Source: Chloroflexota bacterium
GTDB lineage: Bacteria; Chloroflexota; Dehalococcoidia; Tepidiformales; Tepidiformaceae
Direction: 5' to 3'
DNA length: 64,000 nt
Assembly: GCA_026710655.1 (NCBI GenBank)
Contig: JAPOQN010000005.1
Location: forward strand, 186,001-250,000
Shown: piece by piece, positions 15,801-63,969 of the stretch
Numbering within the stretch: the stretch's first letter is position 1
Layout: each line of letters begins with the position of its first letter
The notes under the pieces: generated by a model
What the model was told of the DNA's origin: nothing
Seen by the model: only the letters and a program-made list of their open reading frames with translations
The model's database searches: none
Translations under genes and position numbers: made by a program

Positions 15801-16320
15801 CGGAGATGGTGCGCATGCCCCGTCCGCCGCCGCCGGCGACGGCCTTGATGATCATGCCGGCACCCTCGGGGAGATCGGCGAAGAAGGCGTGCGCCTCCTC
15901 GATGTTGACGGCGTGGGAGAGGCCGGGGACGACGGGGACGCCCTTGTCCTGGGCGAGGGCGCGGGCCTGGGTCTTGGTGCCAAAGAGGTCGAGGGTTTCG
16001 GGCCGGGGTCCGACCCACGTGAGGCCCGCTTGTTCGCAGGCGCGGGCGAGGGCGGGGCTTTCGGCCAGGAAGCCGTAGCCGGGGTGAACGGCGTCGCAGC
16101 CGGCTCGTTTGGCGGCGGCGACGATCTGCTCGATATCGAGGTAGGGGGCGACGCCGCGGCCCTCGAGGGGGCGGACGGCATCGGCCTTGCGGGTGTGGAG
16201 GCTGCGGGCGTCGTCCTCGGAGTGGACGGCGACGGTGCGGATGCCGAGATCAGCGGCCGCACGCATGATGCGGATGGCGATCTCCCCACGGTTCGCGACG
16301 AGCAGATTCTCGATGGGCAC
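12874..16320 (-). CDS. single-chain biotin-dependent acyl-CoA carboxylase (BC-BCCP-CT fusion)
   Basis: One 1148-residue polypeptide holds all activities. Residues 1-450 are biotin carboxylase (start I-E-N-L-L-V-A-N-R-G-E-I-A-I-R, ATP loop G-G-G-G-R-G-M-R). A biotinyl domain follows with A-M-K-M-E at about residue 560, where Lys carries biotin. Residues about 640-1148 are the carboxyltransferase (start R-T-K-Q-R-T-A-R-E-N-V-D, later D-T-P-G-M-M-V-G). It carboxylates acetyl-, propionyl- or another acyl-CoA. Single-chain enzymes of this order are known as LCC-type carboxylases. A glycine-rich insert lies near residue 760. The start is GTG 16320. It is convergent with Anbu with a 3-base gap. Confidence 0.9.
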   Translation of the reverse strand: MPIENLLVANRGEIAIRIMRAAADLGIRTVAVHSEDDARSLHTRKADAVRPLEGRGVAPYLDIEQIVAAAKRAGCDAVHPGYGFLAESPALARACEQAGLTWVGPRPETLDLFGTKTQARALAQDKGVPVVPGLSHAVNIEEAHAFFADLPEGAGMIIKAVAGGGGRGMRTISEAGEIDAAFERCASEAGQAFGDPSLYVERWVPRARHVEVQIAGDESGAVTHFGERDCSIQRRHQKLIEIAPAPNLAPELRERITAAAVRLAKASGYHNLGTFEFIVDAGDDADGEFWFIETNARLQVEHTVTEEVTGVDLVQLQLRLASGESLADLGLSQEDAPSPRGFAVQARVNMETMAADGSTRPSGGTLAAFDVPSGPGVRTDTFGYAGYRTSPSFDSLLAKVIGFSPSPSLADALHRTSRALSDFRIEGVATNVDLLQTILAHPDLATGNVYTRFVDDHVAALVDPINATHPRRFFERAAPAAPASGQAGVTVDRSDPLAVLLHGKEGGPAPAGAPTPEADILPDVDVPEGVHAVRAPLQGTIVTIDVAAGDAVREGQLLLVMNAMKMEHEVHAQASGIVREVTVSAGDTIYEGHPVILIDEAEIDASGEAVAEEIDLDFVRPDLAEVHERHAATLDENRPDAIARRRRTKQRTARENVDHLCDPGTFVEHGSLALTPGTGLSLEEVIRRFPTDGMITGVGSVNGEHFEDEDARTVVLAYDYTVLAGTQGAVNHPKTDRMLELAGKWRRPVVFFTEGGGGRAGTGGRREGGQAAAEAPQIGGYRPLDTPTFATMAKLSGLVPLVGVTSGRCFAGNAVLLGCCDIIIATANSNIGLGGPAMVEGGGLGVFTPEEIGPMDVQVPNGVVDIAVEDEEEAVEAAKQYLSYFQGPIDEWDCADQRILRTLVPENRLRAYDIRAIIETMADSGSVLELRPQFGIGMITSLIRIEGRPIGVIANNAVHLGGAVDSDGADKGARFMQICDAFDIPILFLVDTPGMMVGPEVEKTALARHSARLFVTGANLTVPHVAIFIRKGYGLGAQAMVGGNTKEPFFAAAWPTGEFGGMGLEGQVKLGYRNELAAIEDPEERMRRYEDLVERAYERGKALNQGVAFGLDDVIDPMDSRLWISAALRSVPAPPRREGKKRQNIDTW

Positions 16321-16395
16321 GGGCGTTCCTCCGGGACGACTTTCCAGCAGCGTTCGATCCTACACGCCAGCGATGGGGCGCTCAGGCCAGGGGCA

Positions 16396-16441
16396 GCGAC
16401 GTATCATCGCGGCGAGCGGCGCAGCCAGCGAGCCGCGCCCG
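16396..16441 (+). repeat. 46-base leader repeat, copy 1 (upstream of cyclase 1)
   Basis: This 46-base stretch is identical to 17439-17484. It contains the TATCAT -10-like hexamer at 16402-16407 and ends 15 bases before the ATG of the first cyclase. It is part of a tandem duplication that carried the promoter along with the gene. Confidence 0.9.
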
Positions 16442-16456
16442 TGGAGAGTGCTGGCG

Positions 16457-17389
16457 ATGACGGATGCAATCGCAACACCCACCTCCGACGACCTGGTGCG
16501 CATGGCGGTCGAACTGCGCAACTGGGGGCGCTGGGGGGAAGATGACGAGCGGGGCGCGCTCAACCTGATCACGGAGAAGAAACGCGCGCAGGCGGCGGCG
16601 CTGGTGCGGGAAGGGCTCTCGGTCAGCTGCGCTGGCGCCCTGCCGGTATCGCGGGGGCTGGAGCCGAGACCCGGACAGCACTACATGATCACGGGCGGGG
16701 ACCAGGTAAGCGAGGAGGCTCGCTTCGCGTTCTGCCTGGACTCCTTCTCGATCGCGCCCCACGGACCGGCGACGACGCACCTGGACGCGCTCTGCCACAT
16801 GTTCTACGAGGGCAAGATCTACAACGGCTACAGCAAGGACGAGGTGCGGACGGATGGGGCGCAGAAGGACAGCATCATGGCGGGGGCGGACGGCATCGTG
16901 AGTCGCGGCGTCCTGCTCGATATTCCCGCGCTGCGGGGGGTGGATTGGCTGGAGCCAGGTGAGCGCATCACCATCGCGCAAGTGGAGGCAGCGGAGGAGC
17001 GGGAGGGAGTGCGGGTGGAATCGGGCGACATCCTGCTAGTGGCAACCGGGCGGGAGGCGCGGGCGGAGTCGAGGGGGCCGGGGGCGCCCTGGGACGGGCT
17101 GGCGGGGTTGGACGCGAGCTGTCTGCCGTGGCTGCGGGAGCGGGACGTGGCCGTGGTCGGCTGCGACGGCATCACGGATGCAACCCCAAGCGGCATCGAC
17201 GAGTGGCCGATGCCGCTTCATCAGGTCCTGATCGCGAACATGGGCGTGCACCTGATCGACAACGTATCGATCGAGCGGCTGGTGGCGGCCTGCCGCGAGC
17301 GGAACCGCTACGAATTCCTGTTCGCGATTGCGCCGCTGCGGCTGGAGGGCGGCACGGCCTCGCCGGTGAACCCGCTGGCGATCTTCTAG
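16457..17389 (+). CDS. cyclase family protein (metal-dependent hydrolase, PF04199-like), copy 1
   Basis: A 310-residue protein of the cyclase/kynurenine-formamidase-like family. The metal-binding signature is P-H102-G-P-A-T-T-H108-L-D110-A-L-C-H114. Family members hydrolyse cyclic amides, imides or formamides with Zn2+ or Mn2+. The substrate is unknown; the larger 310-residue subfamily is common in actinobacterial and chloroflexotal catabolic clusters. The next gene is a close paralogue of the same length with a duplicated leader. Start ATG 16457. Confidence 0.85.
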   Translation: MTDAIATPTSDDLVRMAVELRNWGRWGEDDERGALNLITEKKRAQAAALVREGLSVSCAGALPVSRGLEPRPGQHYMITGGDQVSEEARFAFCLDSFSIAPHGPATTHLDALCHMFYEGKIYNGYSKDEVRTDGAQKDSIMAGADGIVSRGVLLDIPALRGVDWLEPGERITIAQVEAAEEREGVRVESGDILLVATGREARAESRGPGAPWDGLAGLDASCLPWLRERDVAVVGCDGITDATPSGIDEWPMPLHQVLIANMGVHLIDNVSIERLVAACRERNRYEFLFAIAPLRLEGGTASPVNPLAIF

Positions 17390-17499: not shown

Positions 17500-18435
17500 A
17501 TGACAGATGCAACGGGAACACCAACCTCGGACGACCTGGCCCGGATGGCGGTCGAGCTACGGAACTGGGGGCGCTGGGGGGACGACGACGAGCGGGGTGC
17601 GCTCAACCTGATCACCAACGAGAAGCGCGCGCAGGCGGTGGCGCTCGCACGGGAGGGATTCTCGGTGAGTTGCGCACGTTCGCTGCCGGTGACCCCGTCA
17701 ATGGAAAACATGACACCCGTGCAACACCACATGGTCGCGGGCGGGGACCAGGTGAGCGAAGAGAGCCGCTTCGCCTTCGCCGCCGACTACATCGGGATCG
17801 CGCCGCACGGGATGGCGACCACGCACCTCGACGCGCTTTGCCACATCTTTTACGAGGGCAAGATCTACAACGGCTACAGCAAGGACGAGGTACGAACGGA
17901 CGGCGCGCACAAGAACAGCATCATGGCGGGGGCGGATGGCATCGTGAGCCGAGGGGTCCTGCTCGACATCCCCCCGGTACGGCACGCGCAATGGCTGGAG
18001 CCGATGCAGAACATCACGACCGCGGAGATGGAGGCGGCGGAAGCGCGGCAGGGGGTGCGGGTGGAGTCGGGCGACATCCTGCTGGTGGCGACGGGGCGTG
18101 ATCCGCGCAAGGAGTCGAAGGGCCCGGGGGGGCAATTCGACGGTCTGGCGGGGCTCGACGCGAGCTGCCTGCCCTGGGTGCGGGAGCGGGACGTGGCCGT
18201 CATCGGGTGCGACGGCGTAACCGATGCCATGCCGAGCGGCGTCGAGGGGTGGCCGATGCCGTTCCACCAGGTCGCCATCGCGAACATGGGCGTCCACCTG
18301 ATCGATAACATGAACCTGGAGCGCCTGGTGGCGGCCTGCCGCGAGCGGAACCGCTACGAGTTCCTGTTCACGCTGGCGCCGCTGAGGCTGGAGAAGGGCA
18401 CGGCCTCGCCGCTAAACCCGCTGGCGATCTTCTAG
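17500..18435 (+). CDS. cyclase family protein, copy 2 (tandem paralogue)
   Basis: A 311-residue paralogue of the preceding gene with the same metal motif (P-H-G-M-A-T-T-H-L-D-A-L-C-H) and near-identical N- and C-termini (E-L-R-N-W-G-R-W-G and N-P-L-A-I-F). The most diverged part is around residues 60-100, just before the metal motif, where the sequence reads M-E-N-M-T-P-V-Q-H-H-M instead of L-E-P-R-P-G-Q-H-Y-M. This suggests different substrate preference rather than simple dosage. Conserved metal residues imply it is active. The broken peptidase-like gene starts 9 bases downstream. Confidence 0.85.
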   Translation: MTDATGTPTSDDLARMAVELRNWGRWGDDDERGALNLITNEKRAQAVALAREGFSVSCARSLPVTPSMENMTPVQHHMVAGGDQVSEESRFAFAADYIGIAPHGMATTHLDALCHIFYEGKIYNGYSKDEVRTDGAHKNSIMAGADGIVSRGVLLDIPPVRHAQWLEPMQNITTAEMEAAEARQGVRVESGDILLVATGRDPRKESKGPGGQFDGLAGLDASCLPWVRERDVAVIGCDGVTDAMPSGVEGWPMPFHQVAIANMGVHLIDNMNLERLVAACRERNRYEFLFTLAPLRLEKGTASPLNPLAIF

Positions 18436-18444
18436 GAGGCGAGC

Positions 18445-19334
18445 ATGGTCCTGAGCCGCCCGGGGGTCGCGAGCCTCGCCGTGCTGGCGGGCGCGCTCGT
18501 GTTCGGGGTGGTATTCGGGCTCGTCCTGGCATTCGGGTCGAGCGAGTCGCCCTCGTTCGAGGAGCGCTGGACGGAGCTGGGCGTGCCCGAGGCGGAGTTC
18601 GTGTTCGGGGGAGACTTCACGCCCACCGAGGAGGAGTCGGCCAGGCTCGAATTGAAGATCGCGCAGGTGGTGTACGCAGAGCACTTCGGGGTCGTGACCT
18701 CAGACCTTACCGTCTACGTTGTCTCCAACGACCTCTTTGAAGACTACGAAGAGCAAGTCGTTTCGGTCCTTGGCGCAGGGCATGGCTTTGAGTCGACGTG
18801 CGGGATCGTTCCACCAGACGAACCCGCGATTGTGGTCCCCAAGGACTGCCCGGAAACCCGGTCGCAGGGTGCATTCCTGGCACACGAGTACTTCCGTGTC
18901 CTCCAACGGGAGGAAGGCGGGCTCGCCTGGAGGCGCCAGGTCGGAACCGTCAGGCAGATGGCCTGGCTAGACTGGATCGAGGCGGGGTCGGCGGTCTATG
19001 CGACCGCCCTGGTAAGCGATGCAAGGCCAAACCCCCGCTTGATGTGCGGCGTGACAGTGTGCGGGCGGCCTGGGCGGCGGCGGAGCAACCATTTCCGGGG
19101 GGCCCGGCGGACCTCGCCGACGCCGAGCAGGAGTCCTTCTTCGCCTACGACGTGGGATTCCTGGCTACGGAGTGGCTCGTGGAGCGGGCGGGGCCGGAAG
19201 CAGTTCTCGACTTCTTCCGCTTCGGCGGGCATAGCGCGGCGTTTGAGGCAGCCTTTGGCATGACCCTCGACGAATTCCACGCTGCCTTCGAGCAGCACCG
19301 GCTGGAGGTCGCCACTCCGTTCGAGCAACGCTAG
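18445..19334 (+). pseudogene. membrane-anchored metallopeptidase-like protein, frameshifted
   Basis: The N-terminal half reads in one frame: a signal anchor at residues 8-30, then H147-E-Y-F-R151 and W-I-E180-A-G-S-A-V-Y. This resembles gluzincin peptidases (HExxH plus a downstream Glu), but the second His is Arg. After about residue 190-205 (positions 19012-19060) the sensible protein continues in the next frame as S-V-R-A-A-W-A-A-A-E-Q-P-F and ends with F-H-A-A-F-E-Q-H-R at 19334. The shift fits loss of one base, possibly in the run of five C near 19030. It is either a decaying gene or an assembly error. It probably sat outside the membrane. Confidence 0.65.
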
Positions 19335-20158
19335 GCGCGCAGCATGCGGCCGGCTTCGCGGATTTCATCGAGGTAGTAAGGCGGGGCGGTGAGGAGGATG
19401 AGGCGGTCGACGCCCTTGTGTTCGAGGGCGGCGCGGGCGGAGCCGTCGGCGCGGACGTAGGGCTCGCTGAGGCCCGCGAAGACGGTCAAGAGGAAGTCGT
19501 CGGGGTTGCGGCCGGAGGCGGCGTGCTCGCGGCGGGCGACTTCGGCGAACGACTCGAGCTGGGGGTGGCCGGCCTGCGTGTTGAAGCCGTCGGCGTGGCG
19601 GCCGGCGATCCCGGCCATGCGCGGTCCCCACCCGCCGACGATGACGGGCGGGGGGACCTCGGGGCGGGGGTAGCCGTGGGCGTTGCGGAGCTGGAAGTGC
19701 TCGCCGTCGAAGCTGGCGCGCTCGCCCGACCAGAGGTGGCGCAGCACCTGGGCGGCCTCGGCGACCTGGGCGGCGCGGACGCGGTCGGGGGGAACGGGGC
19801 GGCCGATCATGGTCTGCTCGGGGGCGTAGGGGAGGGAGGGGCCACCGCCCGCGCCGAGGCCGAGGATGAAGCGGTTGCCACTGACCTCCTGGAGGGTGGC
19901 GGCCATGTTGGCGAGGAGGCCGGGGTGGCGGTTCGCCACGTTGAGGACGAGGGTGCCGAGCATGACGCGGGAGGTGGCCTCGGCGATTCCGGTGAGTGTG
20001 ACGAGGGCCTCGGGGACGCGGCCGCTGTTGTAGTCGGCGTCGCGGAGATGGTCCCAGGTCCAGATGCCGTCGAAGCCGGCGTCTTCGGCAACGACGGCAG
20101 CCTCGCGCATCTGTGCGTAGGTCGCGCCGAAGGGCATCAGGAGGAGGTCGGTGTGCAC
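19331..20158 (-). CDS. LLM-class F420-dependent oxidoreductase
   Basis: A 275-residue luciferase-like TIM-barrel protein. It has the N-terminal strand L-L-L-M-P-F-G-A, G-I-W-T-W-D-H-L-R-D (substrate/F420 pocket), L-G-T-L-V-L-N-V-A-N-R-H-P and the phosphate-binding L-G-L-G-A-G-G-G. These fit the F420H2-dependent subfamily. The substrate is unknown. The start is GTG 20158; TATCCT on the minus strand (20170-20165) lies 6 bases before it, so the mRNA may be leaderless. Its stop shares CTAG with the preceding pseudogene, and it is divergent from the selenoprotein gene. Confidence 0.85.
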   Translation of the reverse strand: MHTDLLLMPFGATYAQMREAAVVAEDAGFDGIWTWDHLRDADYNSGRVPEALVTLTGIAEATSRVMLGTLVLNVANRHPGLLANMAATLQEVSGNRFILGLGAGGGPSLPYAPEQTMIGRPVPPDRVRAAQVAEAAQVLRHLWSGERASFDGEHFQLRNAHGYPRPEVPPPVIVGGWGPRMAGIAGRHADGFNTQAGHPQLESFAEVARREHAASGRNPDDFLLTVFAGLSEPYVRADGSARAALEHKGVDRLILLTAPPYYLDEIREAGRMLRA

Positions 20159-20195
20159 GGGGGCAGGATAGCGGAGACGGGCGGGGGCGCGTTCG

Positions 20196-20201
20196 TACAA
20201 T
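20196..20201 (+). promoter_or_regulatory. probable -10 element TACAAT of the selenoprotein gene
   Basis: TACAAT is a near-consensus -10 hexamer. Transcription from about 20208 would give an 11-base leader containing the AGGAGG ribosome-binding site at 20209-20214. No clear -35 element is seen. Confidence 0.45.
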
Positions 20202-20218
20202 GGCCGCAGGAGGATGCC

Positions 20219-20875
20219 ATGGCGGACGACAGGCTTCTTGACGACGAACTGAAGGTGCTGCGCGACGGCTTCGCGGAGCGGGCGCCGCAACTGATCGAGA
20301 CGGTGGAGGCGGCGATCGAGGAGATCGAGGCGGCCACCATCGAGCGAGCGCTCGACGTGGGCGCGCAAGCGCCTGACTTCCAGCTTCGGGATGTGACGCA
20401 CGGTCGCGACGTGAGTCTGAGCGAGGCACTCAGGGATGGGCCGGCGGTCGTCTCGTTCTACCGGGGCGAGTGGTGACCGTTCTGCAACATCGAGCTGCAG
20501 GGTCTGCAGCGACGGTACGGCGAGCTCCGGGAGCTGGGCGCAGAGCTGTTCTTCATCGGTCCCGAGACGGAGGAGGACGCGGGCAAGCTGCTGGGGAAGA
20601 ACGAGACGGACATCCCCGTCCTGACCGACAGTGATGGCGCCGTGATGGACGCCTACGGCATCAGCTTTGAGCTGCCCGAGCGTCTGAAGGCGGGGTACAC
20701 ACGATTGGGCTTCCCCGACCGCAATCCTGCGACGGGGTGGCGGCTGCCAACGCCGGCCACGTTCGTGGTCGACACCGGGGGGGTGATCCGTTCGCGACAC
20801 TGCCTGTCGGACTATCGCTACCGGATGGAGCCGCGCGGCATCATCGAGGCGGTCGAAGCGCTGAGGACACGGTGA
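20219..20875 (+). CDS. peroxiredoxin/thioredoxin-like selenoprotein with U-x-x-C motif
   Basis: A 218-residue AhpC/TSA-like protein if the in-frame TGA at 20474-20476 is read as selenocysteine. Before the TGA: A-P-D-F-Q-L-R-D near residue 50 and V-V-S-F-Y-R-G-E-W ending at 85. After it the same frame continues P-F-C-N-I-E-L-Q-G-L and runs to V-E-A-L-R-T-R. Cysteine homologues have F-Y-R-G-G-W-C-P-Y-C-N here, so Sec86 replaces the first Cys of CxxC, leaving Cys89 as partner. An SECIS-like hairpin follows. It would reduce peroxides or disulfides in the cytoplasm. ATG 20219 has AGGAGG upstream. Its final TGA overlaps the GTG of the K+ channel. Automated tools will split it into two hypothetical fragments. 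Confidence 0.85.
20474..20510 (+). promoter_or_regulatory. bacterial SECIS-like element (UGA plus hairpin)
   Basis: Starting at the TGA, the mRNA can form a perfect 7-base-pair stem GCTGCAG (20494-20500) with CTGCAGC (20504-20510), closed by the loop GGT. Outer pairing of CCGT (20477-20480) with ACGG (20512-20515) is possible. The loop is about 24 bases after the UGA, inside the bacterial SECIS range. The core TGCAGGGTCTGCA differs from the E. coli fdhF SECIS core TGCAGGTCTGCA, as I recall it, by one inserted G. The element would bind SelB and recruit Sec-tRNA. Confidence 0.75.
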
Positions 20876-21615
20876 GCATCCCGGAGATGCTCCGCGTGGA
20901 GCAGAGCGAGGAGCGCCTGAAGCGAATCGAGCGGGCAACGGAGCTGCCGATGCTCGCCCTCGCGCTGCTGATGGTACCGCTGCTCATCCTGCCGTTTACC
21001 ACCGAACTGTCGGCGGGGGCCGACCAGTGGTTCCTGATCGCGGACTACGCGATCTGGGCCGCCTTCACGATCGAGTTCGGGGCGAAGCTGCTGGTGGCGC
21101 CCCGCCGCCTGGCATACATCCGCTCCCATCCGCTCGAGGCGGCGATGGTGGTCGTGCCCTTCCTGCGGCCCCTGCGAGTGATGCGGCTGCTCATGTTTCT
21201 GCGGCTGGCGGTGGCGCTGGGATTGAACACCCGCCTCATCCGTACGTTCTTCCTGCGGCGCGGAACGGGCTTCGTGATTGCCTGCCTGCTCATCGCGGTG
21301 GTCGGCGGCGGCACGCTCGTCTTTGTCGCCGAGCACAACCACGCGGGCAGCCAGATCACGTCGCTCGGCGACTCGTACTGGTGGGCGATGGTGACGATGA
21401 CGACGGTGGGCTACGGCGACTACGCGCCGGTCACGCCGATGGGACGCGGTGTTGCTGGCTTTCTCATGGTCTTCGGCATCGCGGCGCTCTCGATCACGAC
21501 CGCCTCGGTCGCGACACTGATGACGCGACAGCCCCAAACGCCTGCGCGGAGCGTGTCGCTGCGGGAGTTCCGAATCAAGCAGCGCCAGTTGCGCACCCGC
21601 CGCTTCGCTCGCTGA
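20872..21615 (+). CDS. voltage-gated-like potassium channel (6TM)
   Basis: A 247-residue inner-membrane protein with a voltage-sensor-like domain. The S4-like segment R-P-L-R-V-M-R-L-L-M-F-L-R-L lies near residue 100-113. A pore domain follows with the K+ selectivity filter T177-T-V-G-Y-G-D183. The C-terminus is short and basic with no RCK domain. The start GTG 20872 overlaps the stop of the selenoprotein (GTGA), implying translational coupling; ATG 20887 is an alternative. Conductance should be K+-selective. Coupling to a redox enzyme is unusual and suggests shared stress physiology, which is inference. Confidence 0.85.
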   Translation: MSIPEMLRVEQSEERLKRIERATELPMLALALLMVPLLILPFTTELSAGADQWFLIADYAIWAAFTIEFGAKLLVAPRRLAYIRSHPLEAAMVVVPFLRPLRVMRLLMFLRLAVALGLNTRLIRTFFLRRGTGFVIACLLIAVVGGGTLVFVAEHNHAGSQITSLGDSYWWAMVTMTTVGYGDYAPVTPMGRGVAGFLMVFGIAALSITTASVATLMTRQPQTPARSVSLREFRIKQRQLRTRRFAR

Positions 21616-21709: not shown

Positions 21710-22525
21710 ATGCGGGAACTTGCCGGACGCATCACGCGGTCCAACCGCTTCGAGTACTTCATCATCGCGCTGATCCTCGGGAACGGCGCGCTGCTGGGGA
21801 TTGAGACAGTCCCCAGCATCAAGGAGGGGTACACGGCCTGGCTCAACGCCGGCCACTGGATCACGATCGGCATCTTCATCGTCGAGGCGGCGCTCAAACT
21901 GTTCGCCCTGGCGCCGCGATCGGAACGCTATTTCCGCGACAACTGGAACGTCTTCGACTTCACGATAATCGTGCTGTCGCTCATTCCCGCGGTAGGGACG
22001 TTCGCCATCATCGCGCGGATGGCGCGGTTGATGCGTCTGCTGCGGCTCGTCTCCGCGGTGCCGGAGCTTCGCCTGATCGTGACGACGTTGGTGCGATCGA
22101 TCCCGGGCATGCTGCACATCGTGGCGGTCATGAGCGTGCTGTCCTACATCTACGCAATCCTCGGCTACGAGTTCTTCCACGAGCACGACCCGGAGCACTG
22201 GAACAACCTCGGGACCTCGCTGCTGTCGCTCTTCCGGGTGGTCACACTGGAGGACTGGACGGACATCATGTACGTGGCCATGGAGCTGCACTCGTTCGCC
22301 TGGATCTACTTTGTGAGCTACGTCGTGCTGGGTTCGTTCGTGACGATCAACCTCTTCATCGCCGTCGTCATCAGCAACCTGGACGAAGCGAAGCAGGAGC
22401 GTCTGCGGCAGCTGGAGCGGGTGGGGACGCGGGACGAACTGATCGACGAGCTGCGAGCGGCTCGGGAGTCGCTGAGCCGGCTGGAGCGGCGGCTCTCGCA
22501 GGATGAGGGCGCCCCGGACCGCTAA
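21710..22525 (+). CDS. NaChBac-like voltage-gated cation channel with acidic filter
   Basis: A 271-residue single-domain six-helix channel. The S1-S4 sensor ends with R-M-A-R-L-M-R-L-L-R-L near residues 102-112. The pore helix and filter read F-R-V-V-T179-L-E181-D182-W-T-D185, then S6 and a C-terminal coiled coil (heptad-like E-L-R-A-A-R-E-S-L-S-R-L-E-R-R-L), as in tetrameric BacNav channels. Na+-selective members have T-L-E-S-W; here S is replaced by D and a second D follows at +4 from E, resembling the engineered Ca2+-selective L-D-D-W-A-D filter. It may therefore conduct Ca2+. It follows the K+ channel by 94 bases and sits behind a 12-codon leader frame. Confidence 0.85.
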   Translation: MRELAGRITRSNRFEYFIIALILGNGALLGIETVPSIKEGYTAWLNAGHWITIGIFIVEAALKLFALAPRSERYFRDNWNVFDFTIIVLSLIPAVGTFAIIARMARLMRLLRLVSAVPELRLIVTTLVRSIPGMLHIVAVMSVLSYIYAILGYEFFHEHDPEHWNNLGTSLLSLFRVVTLEDWTDIMYVAMELHSFAWIYFVSYVVLGSFVTINLFIAVVISNLDEAKQERLRQLERVGTRDELIDELRAARESLSRLERRLSQDEGAPDR

Positions 22526-62092: not shown

Positions 62093-63592
<1,500 letters not shown>

Positions 63593-63892: not shown

Positions 63893-63969
63893 GGGCCATT
63901 AGCTCAGTTGGTTAGAGCGCAGTCCTGATAAGACTGAGGTCCCTGGTTCGAATCCAGGATGGCCCACCA
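63893..63969 (+). tRNA. tRNA-Ile (anticodon GAU)
   Basis: A complete 77-base cloverleaf including an encoded CCA. The acceptor is GGGCCAT with ATGGCCC. The D-arm is GCTC...GAGC. The anticodon stem is CAGTC/GACTG around CTGATAA, giving GAU. The T-arm is CTGG-TTCGAAT-CCAG. It lies in the spacer of the rRNA operon, the usual place for tRNA-Ile. A tRNA-Ala and 23S are expected beyond the window. Confidence 0.97.

Follow-up and report, generated by a model that had tools for sequence, protein, structure and literature searches.

A very probable peroxiredoxin-like selenoprotein gene with conserved coupling to an ion-channel gene in a Chloroflexota bacterium

Does an in-frame TGA in a peroxiredoxin-like gene of a Chloroflexota bacterium end that gene, or does it encode selenocysteine (Sec)? 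The codon in question lies on contig JAPOQN010000005.1 of assembly GCA_026710655.1, in the 64,000-nucleotide stretch (contig positions 186,001 to 250,000) that was analyzed as a whole and that we call the window. Here, a plus-strand frame at 20219–20875 runs from an ATG to a terminal TGA (20873–20875) and would encode 218 amino acids including Sec86. Its sole internal stop is the TGA at 20474–20476 (+), codon 86, which occurs in the context FYRGEW-U-PFCN and gives the motif G-E-W-U-P-F-C, with the putative Sec in its W-U-P-F-C core. We propose that this is a functional selenoprotein gene in which UGA would be decoded as Sec to yield a peroxiredoxin-like oxidoreductase, and we put the probability of this reading at roughly 95%. 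The proposal is based on the Sec machinery of the genome, the conservation of the UGA, purifying selection downstream of it, the presence of Cys at the same site in 24 of the 25 best-scoring homologues fetched from the rest of the phylum, and a constrained hairpin.

The domain encoded by this frame is continuous across the TGA. With Sec written as Cys for the profile searches, the protein matches PF00578 (AhpC/TSA) at 94.1 bits (cut-off 26; E = 7.7e-27) over residues 47–192, which lie on both sides of the TGA and bear out the original prediction that a single frame encodes an AhpC/TSA-like domain broken just by this codon. The protein is also matched by PF08534, and among solved structures the ResA proteins come closest to it in sequence. 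A mechanical list of open reading frames gives this frame as two pieces, 19418–20476 and 20642–20875; gene finders would thus probably report two fragments, as was anticipated from the sequence. The locus is an instance of a selenoprotein that ORF calling cuts in two.

Viewed in one genome, a single in-frame stop would appear the same if the TGA were a true stop and the 3′ part of the gene were dead. Relatives from the same genus allow this possibility to be weighed. A search of 60 genomes, including the source genome, found orthologues (76–83% identical) in five of the eight same-genus relatives, and these five copies span 76–84% identity to that of the window. All six genus copies (that of the window and these five) have TGA at codon 86, and none of them has another in-frame stop. 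The mean pairwise dN/dS among the six copies is 0.249 for codons 1–85 and 0.247 for codons 100–216, and the equality of these values on either side of the TGA indicates that selection acts alike on the 3′ and 5′ parts. The overlap of the terminal stop with the start of the next gene is retained in all six copies as well. These observations agree with the earlier statements that the frame is conserved on both sides of the TGA and that a random nonsense mutation is unlikely, and they leave the pseudogene explanation with a negligible probability.

That explanation could also appeal to the three genus relatives, G003, G005, and G008, in which the genome search found no selenoprotein orthologue. 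The G003 contig (3,133 bases) breaks off within the second channel gene, toward where the selenoprotein gene would lie, and the missing gene is therefore uninformative there. G005 (one contig) and G008 have kept selA and the orthologue was not found in them, so these two seem to be true absences of the selenoprotein gene.

The same comparison bears on the possibility that the conserved frame is that of the opposite strand, where a 535-aa ORF (19331–20938, −) is open throughout in the window. This minus-strand frame is stop-free across the gene in the window and in the genus copy L018, but it has stops in the other four of the six copies (in L017, at the first codon only). Its sole Pfam match, Bac_luciferase, covers residues 272–488, which is the portion beyond the selenoprotein gene, whereas in the forward frame dN/dS is 0.25 and Pfam finds a match. 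We find it barely conceivable that the minus strand accounts for the conservation, and we return to the forward frame and its selenoprotein reading.

Decoding of UGA as Sec calls on selA, selB, selC (tRNA-Sec), and selD, the four genes that the original prediction named as a check. All four are present above their cut-offs in the source genome (93% complete; 3.14 Mb in 71 contigs), which is Sec-utilizing: tRNA-Sec scores 71.1 bits (cut-off 47; ARAGORN calls it tRNA-SeC with anticodon TCA), SelA 517 bits (cut-off 268), SelB 300 bits (cut-off 242), and SelD 345 bits (cut-off 125). At a loose threshold, tRNA-Sec, SelB, and SelD find matches in all 14 control genomes, which is why we go by the cut-offs and by the four genes taken jointly. 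Above cut-off, tRNA-Sec matches in 5/14 controls, SelB in 2/14, SelD in 2/14, and SelA in 1/14; because five controls pass the tRNA-Sec cut-off and only one passes that of SelA, the tRNA score is weak by itself. Across the 60 genomes (source genome included), selA is above cut-off in 38, among them all nine members of the genus, again counting the source genome. No selA match was found in G058 (81% complete), though this genome has a UGA-type locus, L021. SelD of the source genome is itself a selenoprotein candidate (L012; G000:C8:56278-57213, −) with an in-frame TGA in CGGUASK, in agreement with the UxxK motif given for selenophosphate synthetase in Table 1 of PMC13188914. A Dehalogenimonas genome has been described (PMC4918011) with Sec machinery, selenophosphate synthase, and a formate dehydrogenase containing UGA.

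Homologues from outside the genus show which residue usually stands at this site. When 400 genomes of the phylum were searched with a profile, 73 gave matches at E ≤ 1e-9. Among the best-scoring 25 fetched loci outside the genus (L045–L069), 24 have Cys at the motif site and one (L065) has UGA. In the 24 Cys homologues the motif reads W-C-P-[YF]-C or closely resembles it, and the Cys codon is TGC or TGT. Aligning the Cys homologues, as had been recommended, thus places the TGA where it was said to lie, at the first Cys of the homologues' redox motif, and the codons found at this site are not random. Among the weaker matches listed in the phylum, 30 more have a single in-frame TGA, and in the three in which the TGA was placed (L070, L071, and L073) it falls at the first motif position. 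Two further motif types were observed. One, also Prx-like, is F[YF]RSAxW-U-P-[FY]-C, with an in-frame TGA in L020, L021, and L070 (genomes G009, G058, and G136) and open frames of 335–341 aa; the other, U-P-H-C in L071 and L073, is nearer to the SelL-related model (the L073 fragment scores 80 bits vs a cut-off of 120).

UGA forms of the Prx-like motif are not confined to this phylum. A scan of named genomes found them in at least 119 stretches from many phyla; the scan demanded TGA, and its count is accordingly no measure of how often Sec occurs. The family profile hits every one of the 119 listed motif loci at E ≤ 1e-5 (with those 119 as the search space), 112 of them have an open frame of at least 90 codons past the UGA, and 27 score more than 85 bits, including loci from Desulfoluna spongiiphila AA1 and Geomonas azotofigens Red51. 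Cys89 is invariant in the 20 rows of alignment A3, of which 19 came from the motif scan that demanded Cys89. The breadth of the UGA form also speaks to sequencing error, under which the real codon would be TGC or TGT, the very codons present in the Cys homologues. With TGA at codon 86 in six separate genus genomes and UGA at the same site in these 119 or more stretches, such an error is scarcely credible, and a genuine UGA at codon 86 remains our reading.

A tree built by a quick method places the gene among these homologues. Its 50 rows comprise the six genus copies, L065, the 24 Cys rows, and 19 of the 27 high-scoring UGA loci, namely those within the first 80 of the 119 listed; weak or partial rows (e.g. 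L070–L073) were excluded. The genus copies, six in all, group together in a single clade (SH-aLRT 96), which is adjoined, with weaker support, by Cys and Sec rows from other groups. Parsimony requires at least seven Sec/Cys changes on this tree, of which just one is forced by well-supported branches, and repeated gain or loss of Sec and Cys is suggested. A search of viral contigs confirmed no relatives, and a plasmid search returned 79 matching records, all below 60% identity.

A SECIS-like hairpin had been predicted to follow the UGA, and one does, at 20494–20510 (+). It consists of a 7-bp stem (20494–20500 paired with 20504–20510) and a GGU apical loop (20501–20503), with the start of the stem 17 nt and the loop 24 nt 3′ of the UGA. 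In place of bSECISearch, we used our own implementation of the bacterial SECIS model given in PMC13188914, which specifies a spacing of 16–37 nt, a loop of 3–9 nt, a stem of 4–16 bp, a G within the first two loop positions, and an MFE ≤ −7.5. The window hairpin conforms to this model (spacing 24 nt, GGU loop of 3 nt, stem of 7 bp, and, flanks included, −14.2 kcal/mol), but the rules discriminate weakly: the same gene, which is GC-rich, also has a rule-passing downstream hairpin at 106 of 192 further codons. Nor is the stability of a 60-nt fold of the hairpin region unusual (z = −0.18). Given these two results, the hairpin alone is no proof of Sec insertion, and because the free-energy z-score is not significant, we do not build the case on stability.

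Within the genus, the sequence of the hairpin is identical in all six copies. Among these copies, dS is 0.443 for codons 1–85, 0.100 for codons 87–99, and 0.461 for codons 100–216, such that synonymous change is about fourfold lower over the 13 codons 3′ of codon 86. Synonymous codon identity is 0.935 in codons 87–99, a segment picked for the test after the alignment had been viewed, vs 0.729 elsewhere (columns 81–100 excluded; column permutation p = 0.0014). The codons immediately 5′ of the UGA are also unusually conserved, which means that the hairpin cannot account for all of this conservation. Across the wider family and among the matches listed, SECIS-like hairpins are present at 85/116 motif loci (the 119 listed minus three with short flanks) vs 261/1160 codon shuffles; a count on a partial set of the listed matches gave 55/76 vs 434/1640 shuffles. 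Under the same rules, 22 of the 27 high-scoring UGA relatives among the matches listed have a hairpin and five do not. Seven of the 24 Cys homologues have one at the Cys codon, and a single hairpin is common to three of these seven.

UGA is leaky in many bacteria, and codon 86 could in principle be read without Sec, either by near-cognate read-through or as Trp by recoding. Against this, the genome contains a complete Sec system, the UGA occupies the motif Cys site of the homologues, and a constrained hairpin lies 3′ of it. We judge a non-Sec reading to be very unlikely and propose instead that tRNA-Sec and SelB decode this UGA as Sec, directed by the downstream hairpin.

The chemistry of the product can be approached from its motif. 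PF00578 and the profile alignments predict a thioredoxin-fold, peroxiredoxin-like oxidoreductase. In the profile alignments, Sec86 stands opposite the Thr, and Cys89 (codon 20483–20485, +) opposite the Cys, of the TxxC in Bcp-type peroxiredoxins; in another, Sec86 and Cys89 together stand opposite the CxxC of a TlpA/ResA-type protein. Sec86 corresponds to the first-Cys position of thioredoxins and to the Thr of the peroxiredoxin TxxC, and Cys89 to the second-Cys position of thioredoxins and to the peroxidatic Cys position of peroxiredoxins. Taken together, these alignments favor a UxxC selenol/thiol pair. Most likely, going by the motif, Sec86 would be the nucleophile, with a peroxide or a disulfide as its target, and Cys89 would act as the resolving residue by forming a selenenylsulfide. 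A thioredoxin-type donor would then reduce the selenenylsulfide.

The gene is followed by two ion-channel genes on the same strand. Channel gene 1 (Ion_trans_2; 20872–21615, +; PF07885, 9.2e-17) begins with a GTG that overlaps the selenoprotein stop (GTGA), and channel gene 2 (Ion_trans; 21710–22525, +; PF00520, 2.9e-51) is a syntenic neighbor. The stop/start overlap between the selenoprotein gene and channel gene 1 is RTGA (GTGA or ATGA) in all six genus copies, so that the coupling of the real stop to the next gene, noted in the original prediction, holds throughout. All six also keep the order of a divergent luciferase-like oxidoreductase gene, the selenoprotein gene, channel gene 1, and channel gene 2. 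In the genus members in which no selenoprotein gene was found, a channel 1 match is absent from G003 and G008 and is just 45% in G005; the G003 contig ends at the locus, which makes its missing channel 1 uninformative. Matches to channel 1 are confined to the six genus-copy loci among 140 compared, many of which are only ~3 kb, so distant linkage would escape this comparison. Elsewhere in the window are a 16S rRNA gene (62093–63592) followed by a tRNA gene (63893–63966), as well as tandem plus-strand ORFs (16187–17389 and 17500–18435) whose translations have long common stretches, resembling a duplication.

This arrangement raises the speculative idea that the selenoprotein serves the coupled channel as its redox partner. 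UGA acts as a stop when selenium is lacking, and if ribosomes get to the RTGA start only when Sec is inserted at codon 86, channel synthesis would hang on selenium, and the UGA would make of the two genes a selenium-gated, redox-controlled ion-flux module. We consider this idea rather improbable. The conserved coupling does, however it is interpreted, offer a testable link between selenium supply and channel expression.

How does this gene compare with selenoproteins already described? The original prediction called it undescribed, which stands for the individual member but not for the kind. In the literature on Chloroflexota and Dehalogenimonas, we met no earlier report of this individual member, by which we do not claim its absence from print. 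Prx-like UxxC selenoproteins, in contrast, have been published since 2005 or earlier: PMC1088965 counts 22 Prx-like sequences, 21 with UXXC; the GOS survey reports "Prx-like 1" (pfam00578, UxxC) with 225 Sec and 2,740 Cys sequences (PMC2398784); Table 1 of PMC13188914 lists Prx-like thiol:disulfide oxidoreductase selenoproteins (PF00578, UxxC/UxxU); and such UxxC proteins are also treated in PMC9312934. The UGA forms in the 119 or more stretches likewise tell against a new kind.

The window protein shares with this family, as described in PMC13188914 and PMC2398784, PF00578, a thioredoxin-like UxxC that opens with Sec, a SECIS-like hairpin immediately 3′, and many Cys homologues; it differs in the coupling of its gene to an ion-channel gene. 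Set beside the published descriptions only, its lineage may be a separate subclade of the family. Other known systems were compared as well. The cd02970 "Peroxiredoxin-like family protein" has the Sec motif UxxS according to Table 1 of PMC13188914, whereas the window protein has UxxC; a likeness to that family is seen in the product name "peroxiredoxin-like family protein" on six of the ten plasmid relatives listed, but the PF13911 match is weak, at 22.1 under the cut-off of 27. Matches to the SelL-related redox protein (NF040769; 32.6 bits over residues 50–149, cut-off 120) and to the thioredoxin-dependent peroxiredoxin PrxU, which belongs to the same PF00578 superfamily (NF040737; 30.6 bits, cut-off 270), are weak and far below their cut-offs, and the NCBIfam thiol peroxidase model gives a weak match that is also far under its cut-off. 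In the TxxU peroxiredoxins of PMC13188914, Sec closes the motif; the window protein instead has its Sec opposite the Thr and Cys89 opposite the Cys. The ResA/TlpA thiol-disulfide oxidoreductases have a CxxC that aligns with the UxxC of the window protein, at 42.9 bits for ResA vs a cut-off of 170. We conclude that the gene encodes a genuine selenoprotein of a kind already known; new are this individual member and the translational coupling, conserved in the six genus copies, of its gene to that of an ion channel.
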